The notes under the pieces are model-generated. The model was given only the letters and a program-made list of their open reading frames with translations, was not told where the DNA came from and did not search any database. From Bacteroides sp. Marseille-P3684 (GTDB lineage: Bacteria; Bacteroidota; Bacteroidia; Bacteroidales; Bacteroidaceae), in contig NZ_LT985808.1 of assembly GCF_900291465.1 (NCBI RefSeq), positions 3,314,670 through 3,378,669 on the forward strand: a stretch of DNA of 64,000 nt, written 5' to 3'. Of the stretch, positions 35-61,914 are shown piece by piece. A program made the translations under genes and the position numbers. Each line of letters opens with the position of its first letter. Position 1 is the first letter of the stretch.

Positions 35-114
35 AAACAATTGTGTTTGGCAGGTGAAACTATATTGTTTGACGCGGCAAACTATATTGTTTGGCGCGCG
101 AAACAATATTGTTC
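35..114. repeat. Palindrome array 1 (4 units, 22-bp period)
   Basis: Four copies of a 14-bp inverted repeat related to AAACAATATTGTTT start at 35, 57, 79 and 101. The period is exactly 22 bp, and the 8-bp GC-rich spacers are not conserved. Related arrays lie at 18211-18290 and 61146-61247. Sequence to the right (115-340) is related to that right of array 2, including a TATAGTTTTCTAAAAT stretch and the hairpin at 316-336. Function is unknown; operator-like binding sites or a dispersed intergenic repeat are both possible. Confidence 0.85.
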
Positions 115-5879: not shown

Positions 5880-7169
5880 TTATGAGTCTCCTTCATTGGT
5901 TCCCGGACGGAAGACGTAGTCATGCACTCCGCCGTCCTTCCATTCCATGAGCACGGCATCGAGGTAGAGGTTGTGGCGTCCGAAGACGAGGGTTATCTTG
6001 TACCGCTTGCCGGTCTCGATGGACTTCACGGGATTGGTCGTGCCCACCTCATGCACGGGGACGATGACATCCTTCCACTGCATGGTGTGGGTCAGTCCGT
6101 TCTCTTCGTTCGTACGCTGCGTGTCCATGGGGAATTTGTCGAGGTGCGAGAGCAGGGCGCTGACGTCCATCTTCAGGAAGACCCCTTTCCCGGCAGGCGT
6201 GTTCAGGATGTCTGTCGCTGCAGTGCGGCTGGTGCGCACGTTGACGAAGAGGGAGTCCACAGCCACGTCGCGTCCCACGGTGAGCTGGGTGTGTCCCGTC
6301 GTGCGGATGGAGAAGTCATCGGGGAGGTCCTGCATCTCCGTCACCTTGTAGCCGTGGATGGAGGCTTGGTTCTGCGCCTGTGCCTGGTCCGGCAGCCAGT
6401 TGAGCTTCTGCGGAACACTGAAGGGCATCCAGCCGGCATCCGTGGCAGTCGGAGCAGCACCAGTCCCGTCGTAGTAGCACACCCGGATATTGCTCAGCAC
6501 GACGTCGCGCACATACTGCATGTCGACCATCGACTGGTCGCGCTGTGCCACGAAGAGCACCTGCGCCGTCAGGTGGCGGAAGTAGAGGCGGTTCCTTTCC
6601 TGTCCGAACTTGTCCTCCTTGTTTCCCCAGTAAGCCGGGTCGGCATCGAGAGAGAGGAAGTCCATCCGTCCCAGGGGCAGCTTGCCTCCCGACACCGCCT
6701 CGCTGCTCAACGTCAGTTCGCGGTAGTCGAACGCACCACGGTCTGTCGCCTTGGGCGCAAGCACCACTGCCGGCGCATAGCCTCGCGCAACGTACGTTTC
6801 GCCGTTGGAGGCATACTCCACGCCGGTGTTGTAGGTCATCTTGTAGTAGTCGTTGATTTTGCCCAGCACCTCCACGAGGTGGGTGTAGGCGTCGTCCGTG
6901 CTCAGGTAGTCCGCAGGCGGATTGTCGAAGTTGTCAGCCTGCTGCTGCGTCATGAGCAGGATGTTCGGGGTCATGCGTACGCCGTCAATCTGTTGCAGTC
7001 CGGCGCGGCTCACCACGAAGTTCATCTGGATTTCGTTCGTCGGCGCATCCTTTCGCATCATCCGGTCTTCCTCCGAGACGACGCACGAGGCGAGCAGCCC
7101 CATCGCTCCTGCCAGAAGGGGGAGCAGCGGACGGAAGCGCCGGGTTGTCAAGTGGGAGTTTATCTTCAT
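5880..7169 (-). CDS. Fimbrillin-type lipoprotein
   Basis: Predicted pilus subunit of 429 aa. The signal peptide has a basic n-region (HLTTRRFR) and lipobox LASC (Cys29). SRA at 54-56 takes the place of the TRA motif found in its neighbours. The C-terminus (VFGRHNLYLDAVLMEWKDGG) has the alternating pattern of a terminal fimbrillin beta-strand. It follows the 698-aa subunit by only a few bases, so the two are probably translationally coupled. No enzyme signature. It could be an accessory or adaptor subunit between shaft and tip, but the sequence does not decide this. Confidence 0.7.
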   Translation of the reverse strand: MKINSHLTTRRFRPLLPLLAGAMGLLASCVVSEEDRMMRKDAPTNEIQMNFVVSRAGLQQIDGVRMTPNILLMTQQQADNFDNPPADYLSTDDAYTHLVEVLGKINDYYKMTYNTGVEYASNGETYVARGYAPAVVLAPKATDRGAFDYRELTLSSEAVSGGKLPLGRMDFLSLDADPAYWGNKEDKFGQERNRLYFRHLTAQVLFVAQRDQSMVDMQYVRDVVLSNIRVCYYDGTGAAPTATDAGWMPFSVPQKLNWLPDQAQAQNQASIHGYKVTEMQDLPDDFSIRTTGHTQLTVGRDVAVDSLFVNVRTSRTAATDILNTPAGKGVFLKMDVSALLSHLDKFPMDTQRTNEENGLTHTMQWKDVIVPVHEVGTTNPVKSIETGKRYKITLVFGRHNLYLDAVLMEWKDGGVHDYVFRPGTNEGDS

Positions 7170-17635: not shown

Positions 17636-17920
17636 GAGAGAATAGCGCGTACCAGCGACGAATATCAATGTACATCTGAAAACTTCATTACACTGTTTAC
17701 TAGTAAATTACGAAATACATCCATGTACAAATGCATCCAAACGCATGATTTTTCCTCCTTCCAGCACACGGACGGCTTCCTAGTGACATTCCCAAGCTGT
17801 TCCCACCACCGGGCATCCATGAGGAAGGGAGGATTCCGCCCCACGCCTGGGGGGTCTTGTCCATTATCCGTCGTCCATTGTCAAGAGAGACGGCTGCCAT
17901 TGACCGCCGAAGAGGTGTTT

Positions 17921-18016
17921 TGACAAAATGTCAAACGAAGGTCTCCACAGTGCCCTTCCTCGCACCAAAATACGATTGGGTGGATTCCGAGGCCCTTCTC
18001 AGGCAATTCGCAAAAT
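17921..18016 (-). repeat. Conserved 96-bp block, copy A
   Basis: The reverse complement of this stretch aligns without visible gaps to 61444-61541; shared words include GCGAATTGCC, GAGAAGGG, GGGCACTGTGGAG and CGTTTGACA. In both copies the block lies between a palindrome array and a gene start: here 194 bp from array 2 and 392 bp from the fimbrial start codon. One frame reads ELPEKGL...FW..GHCG..RLT in both copies, so a short peptide cannot be excluded, but most likely it is a dispersed repeat. The rest of 17636-18210 holds nothing else I recognise. Confidence 0.75.
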
Positions 18017-18210
18017 ACACATTGACACAGATTCGTTCCAAGCGTTATCATCCCGACACAACCTAAGAGCAGCATCCTTCCCATGCGACAGCAGGATTCC
18101 CACACAGCACACATGATGATACCTTCTGATTTATTGACACGCCTCACCTTCCAGCGAACGAAACCCGGAGTTTTTGCCTTTCATTCTCCGAACATTTGAC
18201 TTCCACGGAT

Positions 18211-18290
18211 GAAACAATATTGTTTGGGAAGTGAAACTATATTGTTTGATTCGTCAAACACTTGTGTTTCGCACGTGAAACAATATTGTT
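18211..18290. repeat. Palindrome array 2 (4 units, 22-bp period)
   Basis: Units start at 18211, 18233, 18255 and 18277. Two are the perfect palindrome AAACAATATTGTTT; the others are AAACTATATTGTTT and AAACACTTGTGTTT. Spacers are 8 bp and unrelated in sequence. The sequence before it (ATTTGACTTCC) and after it (TATAGTTTTCTAAAAT, then the hairpin at 18528-18548) is shared with array 1, in the same orientation. Confidence 0.87.
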
Positions 18291-18527
18291 TGAGCCTCAA
18301 AATGTAAGTATTTCGAAAATGAAATGTATAGTTTTCTAAAATAAGAGTCCTTTTCCGGCTTTTTCATTAACCTTCCTTTGCAATTGCACGCTATTTGTTC
18401 CGAAATTCATCAAATATGCGTTAGAAGAAAACGGCATTTCTCGTGCATTTGTAAAGGAAAAAACGGTGTTTTGATTGACAAATGATAATTTTCGGCGGTG
18501 TGATGTCCAATCATCCCTGAAATGTAG

Positions 18528-18548
18528 GGGCGACCGGTCGGATCGCCC
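18528..18548. repeat. GGGCGACC hairpin, second copy
   Basis: GGGCGACC (18528-18535) and GATCGCCC (18541-18548), with one mismatch in the stem, preceded by TGTAG and followed by GATACACATGCCG as at 316-336. No gene ends here, so in this copy it is not an operon terminator; it supports the view that this is part of a dispersed repeat. Confidence 0.65.
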
Positions 18549-18598
18549 GATACACATGCCGAAGGGCAGTTGTTCTTGATGGGTGGGAATATTGGAAG

Positions 18599-18686
18599 GG
18601 AGGAAATGGTGGAACGGACGAAATGAGAACGGGCGTGATTGGGAGGGATTTGGACGGGTGTGATTGGGATGGACGTAATTGGACCG
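18599..18686. repeat. Degenerate G-rich tandem repeat
   Basis: Imperfect direct copies of ACGGGTGTGATTGGGATGGA-like units (GTGATTGGGAGGG, GTGATTGGGATGG, GTAATTGGA) run up to the left end of the IS element. Poorly conserved; function unknown. Confidence 0.5.
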
Positions 18687-18688
18687 AG

Positions 18689-20526
18689 GGTGTGTCGTAA
18701 TAAGCGATGCACCTTCTTTCTTTCGTCAATTACAAAAGAAAAGTTCGCTATCTTCAAGCAGCGATATGTTGAAGATTTCTTTGATTTATGTGTTCCCTGC
18801 ATCTGAAGAAAGCGGCTGTAAGCTCACAAAACAGTTTAATCAGCCAGTCTATGCCTTCTTTTCTCATCTTTGCACATAACTTTTTTATATTAAAGGCAAT
18901 GGCAAGGAAGGAGAAGTCCATAAAGACCTTGTCCTTTCCAAAATGGCGGAAACGTTTGTAGTTCATGTTATATTTTATCTGCCCGAATACGGCTTCCGGT
19001 TCTATGCATCTTCGTCCCCTGTGTTTCAGCCCTTCCTCGGAGCAGAGCAACTCTTTGGCTTTTTGCTTGTATTTCCTGAGCCTGTGGTTCAGTTCTATTG
19101 TCCTGTCCCCTTTTGCTTTAAAACATAGACACCTTAGCGGGCAGCCTTCGCACCTGACAGCCCTGTATCTGGCACTTTCGCTCACATATCCGGATGCGGT
19201 TTTCACATGCCTGTTTCCTATCCTCCGCATCTTTTGTCCCATGGGGCATACGCAATAGTCATGTTCTTCATTGTAGTAGAAGTTTTCAGCCTTGAACGGG
19301 TCGGGTCTGAATCTCGGCCGTTGCTCCATGTGGAAGTAATTGTATTTGACGTAAGCTTCCATGCCGTTTTCTGCCATGAAGCGGTAATTTTCCTCGGAGC
19401 CGTAGCCCGAATCAGCCACTACTGTATGGGCCAGCCTGTCGTATCTGTTTGAGAAGGATTGCAGGAAAGGTATCATAGTCAGCGTGTCCGTAGGGTTGGG
19501 AAAAAGTGCAAAATCGGTAATGAACTGGTTCTCGGTGGCAATCTGAAGGTTGTAACCGGGTTTGGTCTGTCCGTTACGCATGGCATCCTCCTTCATCCTC
19601 ATGAAAGTGGCATCCTTGTCCGTCTTGGAATAGGAGTTGCGCTCCTGCAGCGTGTCCAGATGATTGTCGTATTCCTGCAGCTTGTCCCTGTGCGCTTCCA
19701 GTTCTTTCAGCTGCCTGCGTTTCTTTCTTTGTGCGGCCTTCTCCTCTTTTGTGGAAGGCTCGGGAACCTGTTCAAGCGCATTGCGCAGTTCGCCCGCCAT
19801 TTCGGTCAGCATGGCTGGGGTAAACTCAACTTCCTCATTGTTTTCCGGTGATTTCTCCTGGGCGATGGCATCGTCTATCTGACCCAACAGGACATGGATT
19901 TTCTTCATCAGGCGTTCACGGTTCCGCTCGACGGTCTTTTTCCACACGAAAGTATACTTGTTGGCCTTGGATTCAATCTTCGTTCCGTCAATATATTCCA
20001 CGTTCAGGCTGATGAACCCTTTGGCGGAAAGCAGAAGGACGATTTGGGTGAATACTTCGTTGATTTCCTTCTTCACGCGGTTGCGGAAGCGGTTGATGGT
20101 AATGAAGTCCGGTTTCTCGTGCCCGGCCAGCCATATATAATGGATGTCGCGGTGGAGGAGTTTTTCTATCTTGCGGCAGGAGTAGATGTTGTTCATATAG
20201 GCGTACAGGATGACCTTGAGCATCATTCGGGGATGGTAAGGGCTACGGCCGCATTCCTTATATAACTTCCTGAAACCTTCCAGATTCAGGCTCTCAACAA
20301 GGGCGTCAACCATGCGTACCGGATCGTTCTTTGCAATATCCTCATCGATTCTTTGAGGAAACAGCACTGTTTGGTTGGGAATGTAAGGACGAAAATGTAT
20401 CTTTGTCATAAGATTATTTTTGTTATAATGCTTAAAGATACAAAATCTTTAGGTAATAGCAAAGCCTCGGCTTGTGAAAGTCGGGGCTTTGTGCATAAAA
20501 AAAGAAGGTGCGCTTTTTGACACACC
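18689..20526 (-). mobile_element. IS1182-family insertion sequence
   Basis: A single transposase gene (18754-20409) lies between imperfect terminal inverted repeats. The left end starts GGTGTGTCGTAATAAGCG and continues GCACCTTCTTTCTTT; the right end, on the other strand, starts GGTGTGTCAAAAAGCGC and continues ACCTTCTTTTTTT. The element is about 1.84 kb, normal for the family. I could not find a clear target-site duplication. It separates repeat-rich DNA upstream of the fimbrial operon from a 23-bp minisatellite. The transposase is intact, so the copy may be active. Confidence 0.85.
18754..20409 (-). CDS. IS1182-family transposase
   Basis: DDE transposase of 551 aa. The N-terminal part contains the family segment RSPYHPRMMLKVILYAYMNN and a helix-turn-helix-like region. 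Catalytic residues are visible: first Asp in VEYIDGTKIESKANKYTF, second Asp in VVADSGYGSEENYRF, and the Glu in the C-terminal segment HRGRRCIEPEAVFGQIKYN. A zinc-finger-like cluster (CPMGQKM, then CEGCPLRCLCFKA) lies between the second Asp and the Glu, as in many IS1182 members. A charged coiled-coil insertion (EEKAAQRKKRRQLKELEAHR) follows the first Asp. No frameshift or stop interrupts the frame, so the element is probably functional. Confidence 0.9.
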   Translation of the reverse strand: MTKIHFRPYIPNQTVLFPQRIDEDIAKNDPVRMVDALVESLNLEGFRKLYKECGRSPYHPRMMLKVILYAYMNNIYSCRKIEKLLHRDIHYIWLAGHEKPDFITINRFRNRVKKEINEVFTQIVLLLSAKGFISLNVEYIDGTKIESKANKYTFVWKKTVERNRERLMKKIHVLLGQIDDAIAQEKSPENNEEVEFTPAMLTEMAGELRNALEQVPEPSTKEEKAAQRKKRRQLKELEAHRDKLQEYDNHLDTLQERNSYSKTDKDATFMRMKEDAMRNGQTKPGYNLQIATENQFITDFALFPNPTDTLTMIPFLQSFSNRYDRLAHTVVADSGYGSEENYRFMAENGMEAYVKYNYFHMEQRPRFRPDPFKAENFYYNEEHDYCVCPMGQKMRRIGNRHVKTASGYVSESARYRAVRCEGCPLRCLCFKAKGDRTIELNHRLRKYKQKAKELLCSEEGLKHRGRRCIEPEAVFGQIKYNMNYKRFRHFGKDKVFMDFSFLAIAFNIKKLCAKMRKEGIDWLIKLFCELTAAFFRCREHINQRNLQHIAA

Positions 20527-20577
20527 TTCCTACATTGTTTATTATTGGACGCTATGGCAGGATTCCTCCACAAATAA

Positions 20578-20700
20578 CCGAACGGAATCGTCACAAATAA
20601 CCGAACGGAATCGTCACAAATAACCGAACGGAATCGTCACAAATGACCGAACGGAATCGTCACAAATAACCGAACGGAATCGTCACAAACAACCGAATTT
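20578..20700. repeat. 23-bp tandem repeat (about 5.3 copies)
   Basis: Copies start at 20578, 20601, 20624, 20647 and 20670, with a partial sixth at 20693. The unit reads CCGAACGGAATCGTCACAAA followed by three variable bases (TAA, TGA or CAA). Conservation is nearly complete, so the array is young or kept uniform. It begins 52 bp from the IS right end. No gene overlaps it. From 20701 to 20990 I see only AT-rich sequence without a recognisable feature. Confidence 0.9.
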
Positions 20701-44613: not shown

Positions 44614-44704
44614 AAACCGACTTTCATCCGACAGTTGCATCGTCCAACCCTATCCGACTCAGGGACTTGCAGACAAGACTGACAGTACCCTCCTGCGGGA
44701 CTGT

Positions 44705-44836
44705 TGGTTCCATGCGCTTGGGACTTCGAGTTCCACGGCTTGGGACTCCGAGTTCCACGGCTTGGGACTTCGAGTTCCAAAGCCTGGAACTCCGAGTTCC
44801 AGAGCCTGGGACTGTCAGTTCCACGCCGTGGAACTC
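44705..44836. repeat. Array of six 22-bp inverted-repeat units
   Basis: Units start at 44705, 44727, 44749, 44771, 44793 and 44815. Each is itself an inverted repeat of the form GAGTTCC...GG(A/G)ACTC; the unit at 44771 is perfect (GAGTTCCA, 5 nt, TGGAACTC). The period is 22 bp, the same as that of the AAACAATATTGTTT arrays, with an unrelated sequence. It lies about 90 bp past the fecR stop codon. From 44614 to 44704 nothing else was recognised. Confidence 0.85.
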
Positions 44837-44915
44837 AGAGCGTCTTGCCCGTCAGGCAAAAACGAGATAAGCAGGGAGCGGTCAGCGGCAGCGCATCCGC
44901 ACGAAGACAAAAGAA

Positions 44916-60930: not shown

Positions 60931-61145
60931 CCCGCTTCACCAATTCCCTATCCGGACTTGAGAGAACAGGATGACAGTTTGCAATCCAATCGCCCGCTTT
61001 GCTTGACAAAAACAACAAAATCCCACATTCCGACTAACACCACTTTTTACAAAATCACTCAACGTAGGTTATTTTAAGAATATTCATGCAGACGAAGCTG
61101 CATAAACTTTCCATCCAAGGGACAAAATAAATATTTATGCTACTC
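60931..61145. other. AT-rich intergenic region
   Basis: No ORF with coding character and no repeat of the families listed, apart from the start of palindrome array 3 at its right end. Nothing else recognised. Confidence 0.4.
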
Positions 61146-61247
61146 AAACAATATTGTTTGATGCATGAAACACTTGTGTTTGACTCGCCAAACAATATTG
61201 TTTGAGACGTGAAACAATATTGTTTCGTCCGGCAAACAGCATTGTCG
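61146..61247. repeat. Palindrome array 3 (5 units, 22-bp period)
   Basis: Units start at 61146, 61168, 61190, 61212 and 61234. Three are the perfect AAACAATATTGTTT; one is AAACACTTGTGTTT; the last is degenerate. Spacers are 8 bp and unrelated. To the right, TTTGCATTCATTCACCT (61286-61302) resembles TTTGCAGTCATTCACCT at 189-206, right of array 1. The array sits 196 bp before the conserved block at 61444 and 668 bp before the mce start codon. Confidence 0.87.
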
Positions 61248-61443
61248 GTGCAGTAAAACGTTACAGTTGGCTATCCGATACATTAATTTGCATTCATTCA
61301 CCTCCAGTTCATCGCGGAAGGCAACAATTGCAACAGTATTATTCTGCACAGTCATCCGGTCAGGCAACATCCGAAACAACACTCTACCGGACGATTCGAT
61401 GTCCAAAAGGAAACACATTCCGTCCGAACGGCATCAAAGTGGA

Positions 61444-61541
61444 TTTGGCGAATTGCCCGAGAAGGGGCTTCCCGGTCACCACCTCGCATTTTGGCGCAAA
61501 GACGGGCACTGTGGAGCGATTCGTTTGACAGAATGTCATTT
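61444..61541 (+). repeat. Conserved 98-bp block, copy B
   Basis: Forward copy of the block seen in reverse at 17921-18016. It lies between palindrome array 3 and the mce gene, 373 bp before that start codon. The shared frame reads ELPEKGLPGHHLAFWRKDGHCG, which may be a short peptide or a by-product of the repeat. From 61542 to 61914 nothing else was recognised except a weak TACTTTTA promoter-like word (61864-61871). Confidence 0.75.
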
Positions 61542-61914
61542 TGTTACTTCCGACTCCGGGGAATCCCCCTCGATGCTTCCTTCTCCTCCCCTTCCTTTTC
61601 ATCCGACGGGACTTGGACACAGACAGAGCATACAAAGACATCCGTACAAACAGAAAGCCCCCGTCCGTCCCTTCCGCAACAGGGAGCACCGCTCCACAGG
61701 GCATCCTCTGATAGACAAATAGAAAGGAGGAAGCCCGACAATCAGTAATAAATATGTATAAAAAGTATCATTTTGCAGGCAAATCCGCAGAGTTGGCAAC
61801 AAACAAGGGCGACTTGTTTGCAAAATAATTGCGGAAAAATTTCCTCATTAAGTTCAAAAGCACTACTTTTATGCCAATTTATGAACCTCTAGTATTTAAC
61901 TAAAAAGAAAAATC

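Follow-up and report, generated by a model that had tools for sequence, protein, structure and literature searches.

Intergenic arrays of short palindromes set at steps of 22 bp were found in the genome of Bacteroides sp. Marseille-P3684 (the host genome), and on balance these are probably helically phased candidate sites for the binding of protein dimers, which have in part been spread by a small mobile element. The window, meaning the whole 64,000-bp stretch of DNA that was analysed, has three arrays of a unit designated type A (AAACN6GTTT, a AAACAATATTGTTT-type palindrome), the unit being 14 bp in length and its spacers 8 bp. It also has one array of another palindrome (type D) and copies of a dispersed element possessing a conserved block A. 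These features are as follows:

35..114, + strand, type A array with units AAACAATTGTGTTT, AAACTATATTGTTT (twice) and AAACAATATTGTTC starting at 35, 57, 79 and 101 in 22-bp steps, the last unit being mismatched
17917..18030, + strand, block A (TGACAAAATGTCAAACGAA...GCAAAATACACATTG), the conserved left part of the element
17921..18480, + strand, copy of the dispersed element with approximate ends at TG(T/A)CA motifs (17921; 18476-18480)
18212..18291, + strand, type A array with units AAACAATATTGTTT, AAACTATATTGTTT, AAACACTTGTGTTT (variant V) and AAACAATATTGTTT starting at 18212, 18234, 18256 and 18278
44697..44844, + strand, type D array of up to seven units resembling GGAACTCnGAGTTCC (up to four mismatches), the first step being 23 bp and later steps 22 bp
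60972..61538, - strand, copy of the dispersed element in the opposite orientation, between a FemAB/GNAT-type gene and a methylmalonyl-CoA epimerase gene
61146..61269, + strand, type A array with units E, V, E and E at 61146, 61168, 61190 and 61212, followed by two degenerate units
61429..61542, - strand, block A match of the 60972..61538 copy

An earlier note on this DNA had described inverted repeats in 22-bp steps at three sites of the window, and this description holds, the steps being exact and only the start of the second array moving from 18211 to 18212. The two degenerate units of the third array (61234 and 61256) have mismatches and keep the 22-bp register of the units from 61146. The window has 12 exact AAACN6GTTT units that form 8 pairs at exactly 22 bp, while 100 first-order Markov windows averaged 0.80 units and never had a pair. 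Tandem Repeats Finder assigned a period of 22 to all three type A arrays. The array at 35..114 is of a subfamily with conserved spacers (subfamily II), with its enclosing element starting to the left of the window. This first array is also doubled at a distance of 138 bp across the window start (host C1:3314566 and 3314704), the second copy lying upstream, outside the window. The type D array is situated between a convergent FecR-type gene and AraC-type regulator gene.

Two other repeats were observed in the window. A near-perfect 23-bp tandem repeat of 5.6 copies (CACAAATAACCGAACGGAATCGT), non-palindromic by the dyad test used, lies at 20569-20697 close to a transposase gene of IS1182 type (18754-20409). 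Another dispersed repeat, palindromic and resembling GGGGCGACCGGTCGGGTCGCCC, adjoins element copies at 311-348 and 18523-18560 and, by eye, about nine further copies.

In the DNA sampled from the host genome, 94 type A arrays of three to six units each were identified. Pairs of the form AAACN6GTTT-N8-AAACN6GTTT occur 219 times in this genome against 25 for the reversed pattern, and sites with at most two mismatches to AAACAATATTGTTT number 289 against 14. When neighbouring type A units 12-34 bp apart are considered, 288 of 294 lie at exactly 22 bp, the exceptions being 23 bp (twice), 18 bp (once), 28 bp (once) and 29 bp (twice). Units out of phase are thus far from being as frequent as those in phase, and the suggestion that the steps place each site on the same face of the DNA is a good one. 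The same spacing holds for 33 of 34 neighbours of type B, 68 of 68 of type C and 3 of 3 of type D, the other palindromes described below. The proposal of a conserved palindrome with varying spacers is likewise supported, as subfamily I has 101 distinct spacers among 131 and most unit positions are nearly invariant; in subfamily II just 27 of 73 spacers are distinct. The variant unit V (AAACACTTGTGTTT) occurs exactly once in 38 of 73 arrays with an oriented element and twice in none; in 28 of these 38 it is the third unit when counted from block A.

Most type A arrays sit inside a dispersed repeat element of about 560 bp, which was found by taking about 5 kb around the arrays. It starts with a TG(T/A)CA-like end and the 100-bp block A, continues through a variable stretch to the array, and closes with a CGTTAGC region and a right-hand end close to TGTCAAGC...TGACA. 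A block A match at a near-fixed distance was identified in 74 of 95 array records (72 of these at E 0.01 or better), giving 74 aligned copies, 37 on each strand. The ends of the element are placed where copies cease to be homologous, with homology fading at TGTCA/TGACA-like motifs and the flanks being unrelated. By eye, no clear target-site duplication was seen in the copies inspected, and no longer copy with a gene was present among those read. A covariance-model search with block A gave at least 61 matches in the host genome (61 candidates scored), and the stretches around 11 matches beyond the first set contained eight copies with a type B array and three more with type A. Block A in some copies is a long near-perfect inverted repeat, that of locus L041 (2197-2310) folding as RNA at -53.7 kcal/mol; other copies fold much less stably, and an alifold consensus of block A showed no structure.

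With GCGTTA as the right-hand landmark, 70 of 72 A copies could be measured (two were below the score limit), and in 53 of these 70 the block A anchor lies 485-489 bp away. The remaining copies measure 475-479 (9), 466 (2), 497-499 (4), 510 (1) and 443 bp (1), while B copies measure 477-478 bp in seven of eight cases and 499 bp in one, which has one extra unit. The main length classes are separated by roughly one or two turns of the helix, which suggests quantised lengths, although this is only a hint since the copies share ancestry. Measured from GCGTTA, the array centres of A copies lie at 1.5-2.5 modulo 22 in 62 of 70 (the other eight at 13.5-15.5) and those of B copies at 3.5-4.5 in eight of eight. 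Measured from block A, the B arrays are centred half a lattice, or about one turn, away from most A arrays because B elements are approximately 10 bp (one turn) shorter; 5 of 72 A copies are likewise half a lattice off. The register is therefore fixed from one side only, which counts against reading the arrays as binding sites.

Besides type A, at least three unrelated palindromes (B, C and D) occur at 22 bp in the host genome. Type B is GC-rich (GTACGGACGCGTCCGTAC-like, also in 22-bp steps) and replaces the type A array within the element of about 560 bp. Type C (CCTAAGTATAATACTTAGG) is present in every sampled region and absent among the hits of the window, and several C arrays adjoin AAAC arrays, continuing their 22-bp register to within 1 bp in the pairs compared. 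Host stretches chosen by position and amounting to 800 kb were scanned. By eye, 17 type B arrays (three near-identical) were identified at 0.56-0.90 Mb, the remaining 460 kb and the hits of the window yielding none; a stricter motif count gave 10 B arrays with at least three units. This domain has one A array of at least three units, of composite type. At 2.30-2.60 Mb type C is dominant, with five arrays against one of type A. The host GC skew has a noisy sign change between about 0.5 and 0.9 Mb and a second near 2.3 Mb, which places the origin and terminus near these positions. As for base composition, C1:560001-900000 (L288-L304) is a GC-rich domain whose 17 stretches average 0.59, compared with 0.51 in the surroundings of A arrays. 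GC values are 0.57-0.62 at four B loci outside the domain and 0.511 +/- 0.033 at A loci. As B arrays lie in GC-rich DNA, their domain pattern may merely reflect base composition.

The locus of the third array allows a comparison with related species. The gap between the FemAB/GNAT-type gene and the methylmalonyl-CoA epimerase gene, counted from last sense codon to start codon, is 987 bp in the host genome and 252 bp in sister species G003, whose epimerase is 96% identical. In sisters G008, G010, G001 and G009 the same gap is 123-228 bp, and none of the five gaps has an array at lags of 21-23. The empty site in G003 shows a lineage-specific insertion of the element at this one locus (61146). 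At the other sister loci, the FemAB/GNAT-type gene was not found in the stretch examined. Repeats of other words with a 22-bp period are present 350-520 bp upstream of the epimerase gene in G004, G005 (second copy) and G013, and as the FemAB-type gene was not found at these loci, no claim is made for positional conservation.

Pairs of the AAAC unit at 22 bp were absent from 14 sister species in a pair search and present in 2 of 101 genomes, namely the host and another member of its family in which one pair was found. A search of the phylum gave matches in 5 of 395 genomes, with one match in each of the four besides the host. Two adjacent A units had no match in a genome collection from which host records may be excluded. 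The earlier note had looked to conservation between strains for its proposal, and here that proposal stands less well, given the absence of paired units from the 14 sisters and of the array from five of them at the one locus compared. Neither array words nor positions are conserved between sister species, which is odd for an essential site and counts against the binding-array reading. Outside the host, block A has one clear match, in sister G003, and by eye the next 560 bp there are without a 22-bp array; weak matches were obtained in G035, G507 and G773, the first two appearing unrelated by eye. G773 belongs to a different genus of the family and has one copy of the element, block A included, in which the 22-bp array is made of an unrelated word. 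Four more loci of this genome (L239, L242, L243 and L245) have clear 22-bp arrays of that word with no block A by eye; in this genus, then, arrays occur without the element of about 560 bp.

Arrays built of different words are found more widely. A de novo scan of 80 named Bacteroidales loci around valS (L124-L203; 1.46 Mb; threshold of at least 42 of 66 identities) gave peaks at lag 22 (24 windows) and lag 21 (10 windows), with zero to five at other lags from 12 to 45 except for the harmonic 44 (eight). Shuffled loci gave no windows at the lags tested. The words differ by species, examples being GAGAAaaagTTCTC in B. faecis, TGCCAatgccTTGGCA in Mediterranea and GAAACnnnnTGTTTC in a Prevotella. 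Just 24% of the repeats at lags 20-24 (n=49) lie in an open frame of at least 150 codons, against 91.5% of 400 random windows. With taxa grouped by record titles, 18 arrays occur in 472 kb of Bacteroides, Phocaeicola, Mediterranea and Paraprevotella, none in 202 kb of Dysgonomonas, Porphyromonadaceae and Paludibacteraceae, and 16 in 789 kb of the remainder. In two sister species (ten contig starts each, 357 kb), arrays of other words occur at 21, 22 and 23 bp, the peak being less sharp (5, 4 and 4 at these lags against 0-3 elsewhere). The period outside the host genome accordingly ranges from 21 to 23, which counts against the binding-array reading. In 100 kb of E. coli K-12 no arrays were found at lags 20-24, and 199 kb of Bacteroides phages and plasmids contained three 22-bp repeats, two in pBF9343 and a short one in phage B124-14.

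In the dyad test, from which 19 of 69 repeats were excluded as low-complexity or in long open frames, the consensus arms of the 45 non-coding arrays outside the window (its five being excluded) had a mean length of 5.36 against 3.62 for shuffles. Arms of at least six were present in 20 of the 45 arrays against 6% of 200 random intergenic 22-mers. Palindromy reached p 0.05 or better in 20 of the 45, the other 25 not being individually significant.

Several known systems share some of these features. The operators of the lambda OR/OL phage type comprise three to four palindromic dimer sites of 14-17 bp, with centres about two helical turns apart and fast-changing specificity. The arrays here are alike in their clustered palindromic sites about two turns apart and in changing specificity, but the 94 A arrays are dispersed between genes in all orientations, and no repressor gene could be tied to them. 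The dyad symmetry and helical phasing of a clustered operator are seen in the A units and in 20 of the 45 de novo arrays. Nevertheless, to read the arrays as the operator of one conserved regulator is too narrow, since unrelated palindromes share the period in the host genome, periods of 21-23 occur in relatives and most A arrays lie in a dispersed element. The chromosome-organising sites of Noc, SlmA and MatP are dozens of dispersed short palindromes with a domain bias, found as single sites and conserved among relatives. Many dispersed palindromes with a domain-biased distribution are also present here, but as phased clusters whose word changes between sister species. A link to ParB_N was considered and rejected, the host having a single such gene, at 2.93 Mb, which is not linked to the arrays. 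CRISPR arrays, with repeats longer than about 20 bp and spacers of about 30 bp, do not fit the 14-bp units and 8-bp spacers.

With regard to the element, its dispersal as copies that have defined ends and unrelated flanks, and the empty site in a relative, are as in MITE-like elements. Tn7 has 22-bp inverted repeats (PMC8649781). Tn7-like ends, with their arrays of TnsB sites, share site arrays and TG..CA-like termini with this element; unlike in these, the array here is internal, palindromic and replaceable in sequence, in an element of about 560 bp without evident gene. A viral, phage or plasmid origin was rejected, as the two array patterns have no exact match in viral contigs and the window element (17917-18490) has none in 72,556 plasmid records or in phages.

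Among other explanations, selfish repeats of the REP/BIME kind, that is, extragenic palindromes whose single-strand hairpins are moved by a RAYT (Y1) transposase, are an unlikely source of the arrays. Like REP, BIME and REPIN sequences, the arrays are extragenic, species-specific, multi-copy palindromes with several families per genome, occurring in all gene orientations, and short palindromic repeats are a known wider class (PMC3733652). However, the Y1 transposase domain PF01797 has no match in the host genome (G000), while 5 of 15 genomes of the genus are positive, and for this reason REP/RAYT membership fails for the host. In addition, the exact 22-bp lattice with free spacers is left unexplained, spacer length being kept and the spacers not being for pairing. 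In a non-systematic look, GTAG/CGTC tags were not evident at the listed A, C and D units, and B has CGTC inside its palindrome.

Hairpins in RNA or as cruciforms, acting as transcription terminators or mRNA stabilisers at gene ends, are improbable as well. The arrays fold far more stably than shuffles (mean z -5.0, with 76% of 100 strand tests below -2), the comparison being 80 random non-coding 88-mers (mean z -1.06, 21% below -2), and none of the 11 type C arrays placed between called genes is in a divergent gap. Such strong folding may point to nucleic-acid structure and counts against reading the units as protein sites, but tandem palindromes fold by construction and RNA has no obvious use for exact spacing. 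The self-complementarity of subfamily-I spacers is 0.361, lower than the 0.439 +/- 0.022 predicted from composition, and pairing across spacers was thus not selected; in subfamily II and the rest this deficit is about one standard deviation. No preference for gene orientation was apparent in 37 placed arrays, none of which is inside a called gene (12 in convergent, 9 in divergent and 16 in tandem gaps; some share a gap, and one B array at a stretch end and one near-identical neighbour were excluded). This indifference together with the avoidance of complementarity disfavours terminator and RNA roles, and the sole terminator-like site in 17700-18750, at 18686, is outside the array. A long hairpin of the whole array was discarded, with complementarity between spacers 1 and 3 being 0.426 against 0.492 +/- 0.042 in 22 four-unit subfamily-I arrays, not beyond chance. 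A structured RNA family was likewise discarded, as Rfam gave no match in the window and one chance-level match in eight loci. Both REP/RAYT and hairpin functions fit less well than phased binding arrays.

It is also quite unlikely that the arrays have no function and that tandem duplication with copying by the mobile element keeps their period passively. Element copies do share ancestry, subfamily II spacers are conserved and the paired unit is confined to the host species among those searched. Against this, four unrelated palindromes in one genome share the period, B substitutes for A in the same element and other species have periods of 21-23 with other words. There is also heavy spacer substitution with almost no change in length, and the lag spectra argue against relatives having diverged arrays with many different periods.

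That the arrays are iteron-like sites or decoys for the replication proteins of plasmids, serving as chromosomal incompatibility determinants, is most improbable. Plasmid pBF9343 of B. fragilis (L331) does have four exact 22-bp iteron-like repeats at 7082-7168 immediately 3' of rep; these are direct and not evidently palindromic, in contrast to the chromosomal intergenic palindromes here, two other plasmids examined have no such 22-bp tandem array beside rep, and the window element is unmatched among the plasmid records searched.

The reading as phased binding arrays is favoured by the fixed spacing with free spacer sequence, by the unrelated palindromes and by the substitution of one for another in the same element. 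Each array would be a cis-acting site in which several palindromes of approximately 12-18 bp lie two turns of the helix apart. In this arrangement a sequence-specific DNA-binding protein might occupy the array as neighbouring dimers, all on the same helical face and binding cooperatively. The orthogonal palindromes A, B, C and D on the same 22-bp lattice would presumably serve paralogous or alternative proteins. Most A and some B arrays would be carried as the central module of a mobile element, small, non-autonomous and bounded by TGTCA/TGACA-like ends, which may spread them between genes. Protein binding, its cooperativity, the mode of movement and any role are inferred, the candidate roles being an architectural one in the chromosome, the insulation of inserts and control over the element.

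More tentatively, and as a possibility rather than a probability, the arrays could represent a class of chromosomal site in the Bacteroidaceae that is defined by geometry rather than sequence. One kind of protein would act on palindromes two turns apart, with words turning over between sister species and orthogonal versions in different parts of the chromosome (B in GC-rich DNA near the origin, A elsewhere and C predominating in the terminus region sampled), and it may function in a fast-evolving nucleoid organisation or in defending against or controlling mobile elements. Searches of the open full-text literature, which takes in few subscription papers and no bioRxiv preprints, gave no account of palindrome arrays at 22 bp in Bacteroidales. 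A Crp-like regulator of Bacteroides has been assigned a 22-bp palindromic motif, which is an ordinary regulon site (PMC3878776).

If the arrays do bind protein, they would constitute a widespread cis-acting system in a dominant family of gut bacteria, one that surveys of sequence conservation would miss because only the spacing is conserved. They would also provide a handle on a family of DNA-binding proteins whose specificity shifts from one sister species to another, and on the dispersal of binding sites by small mobile elements. Many seemingly unrelated intergenic tandem repeats in the Bacteroidaceae would then fall under one testable rule.
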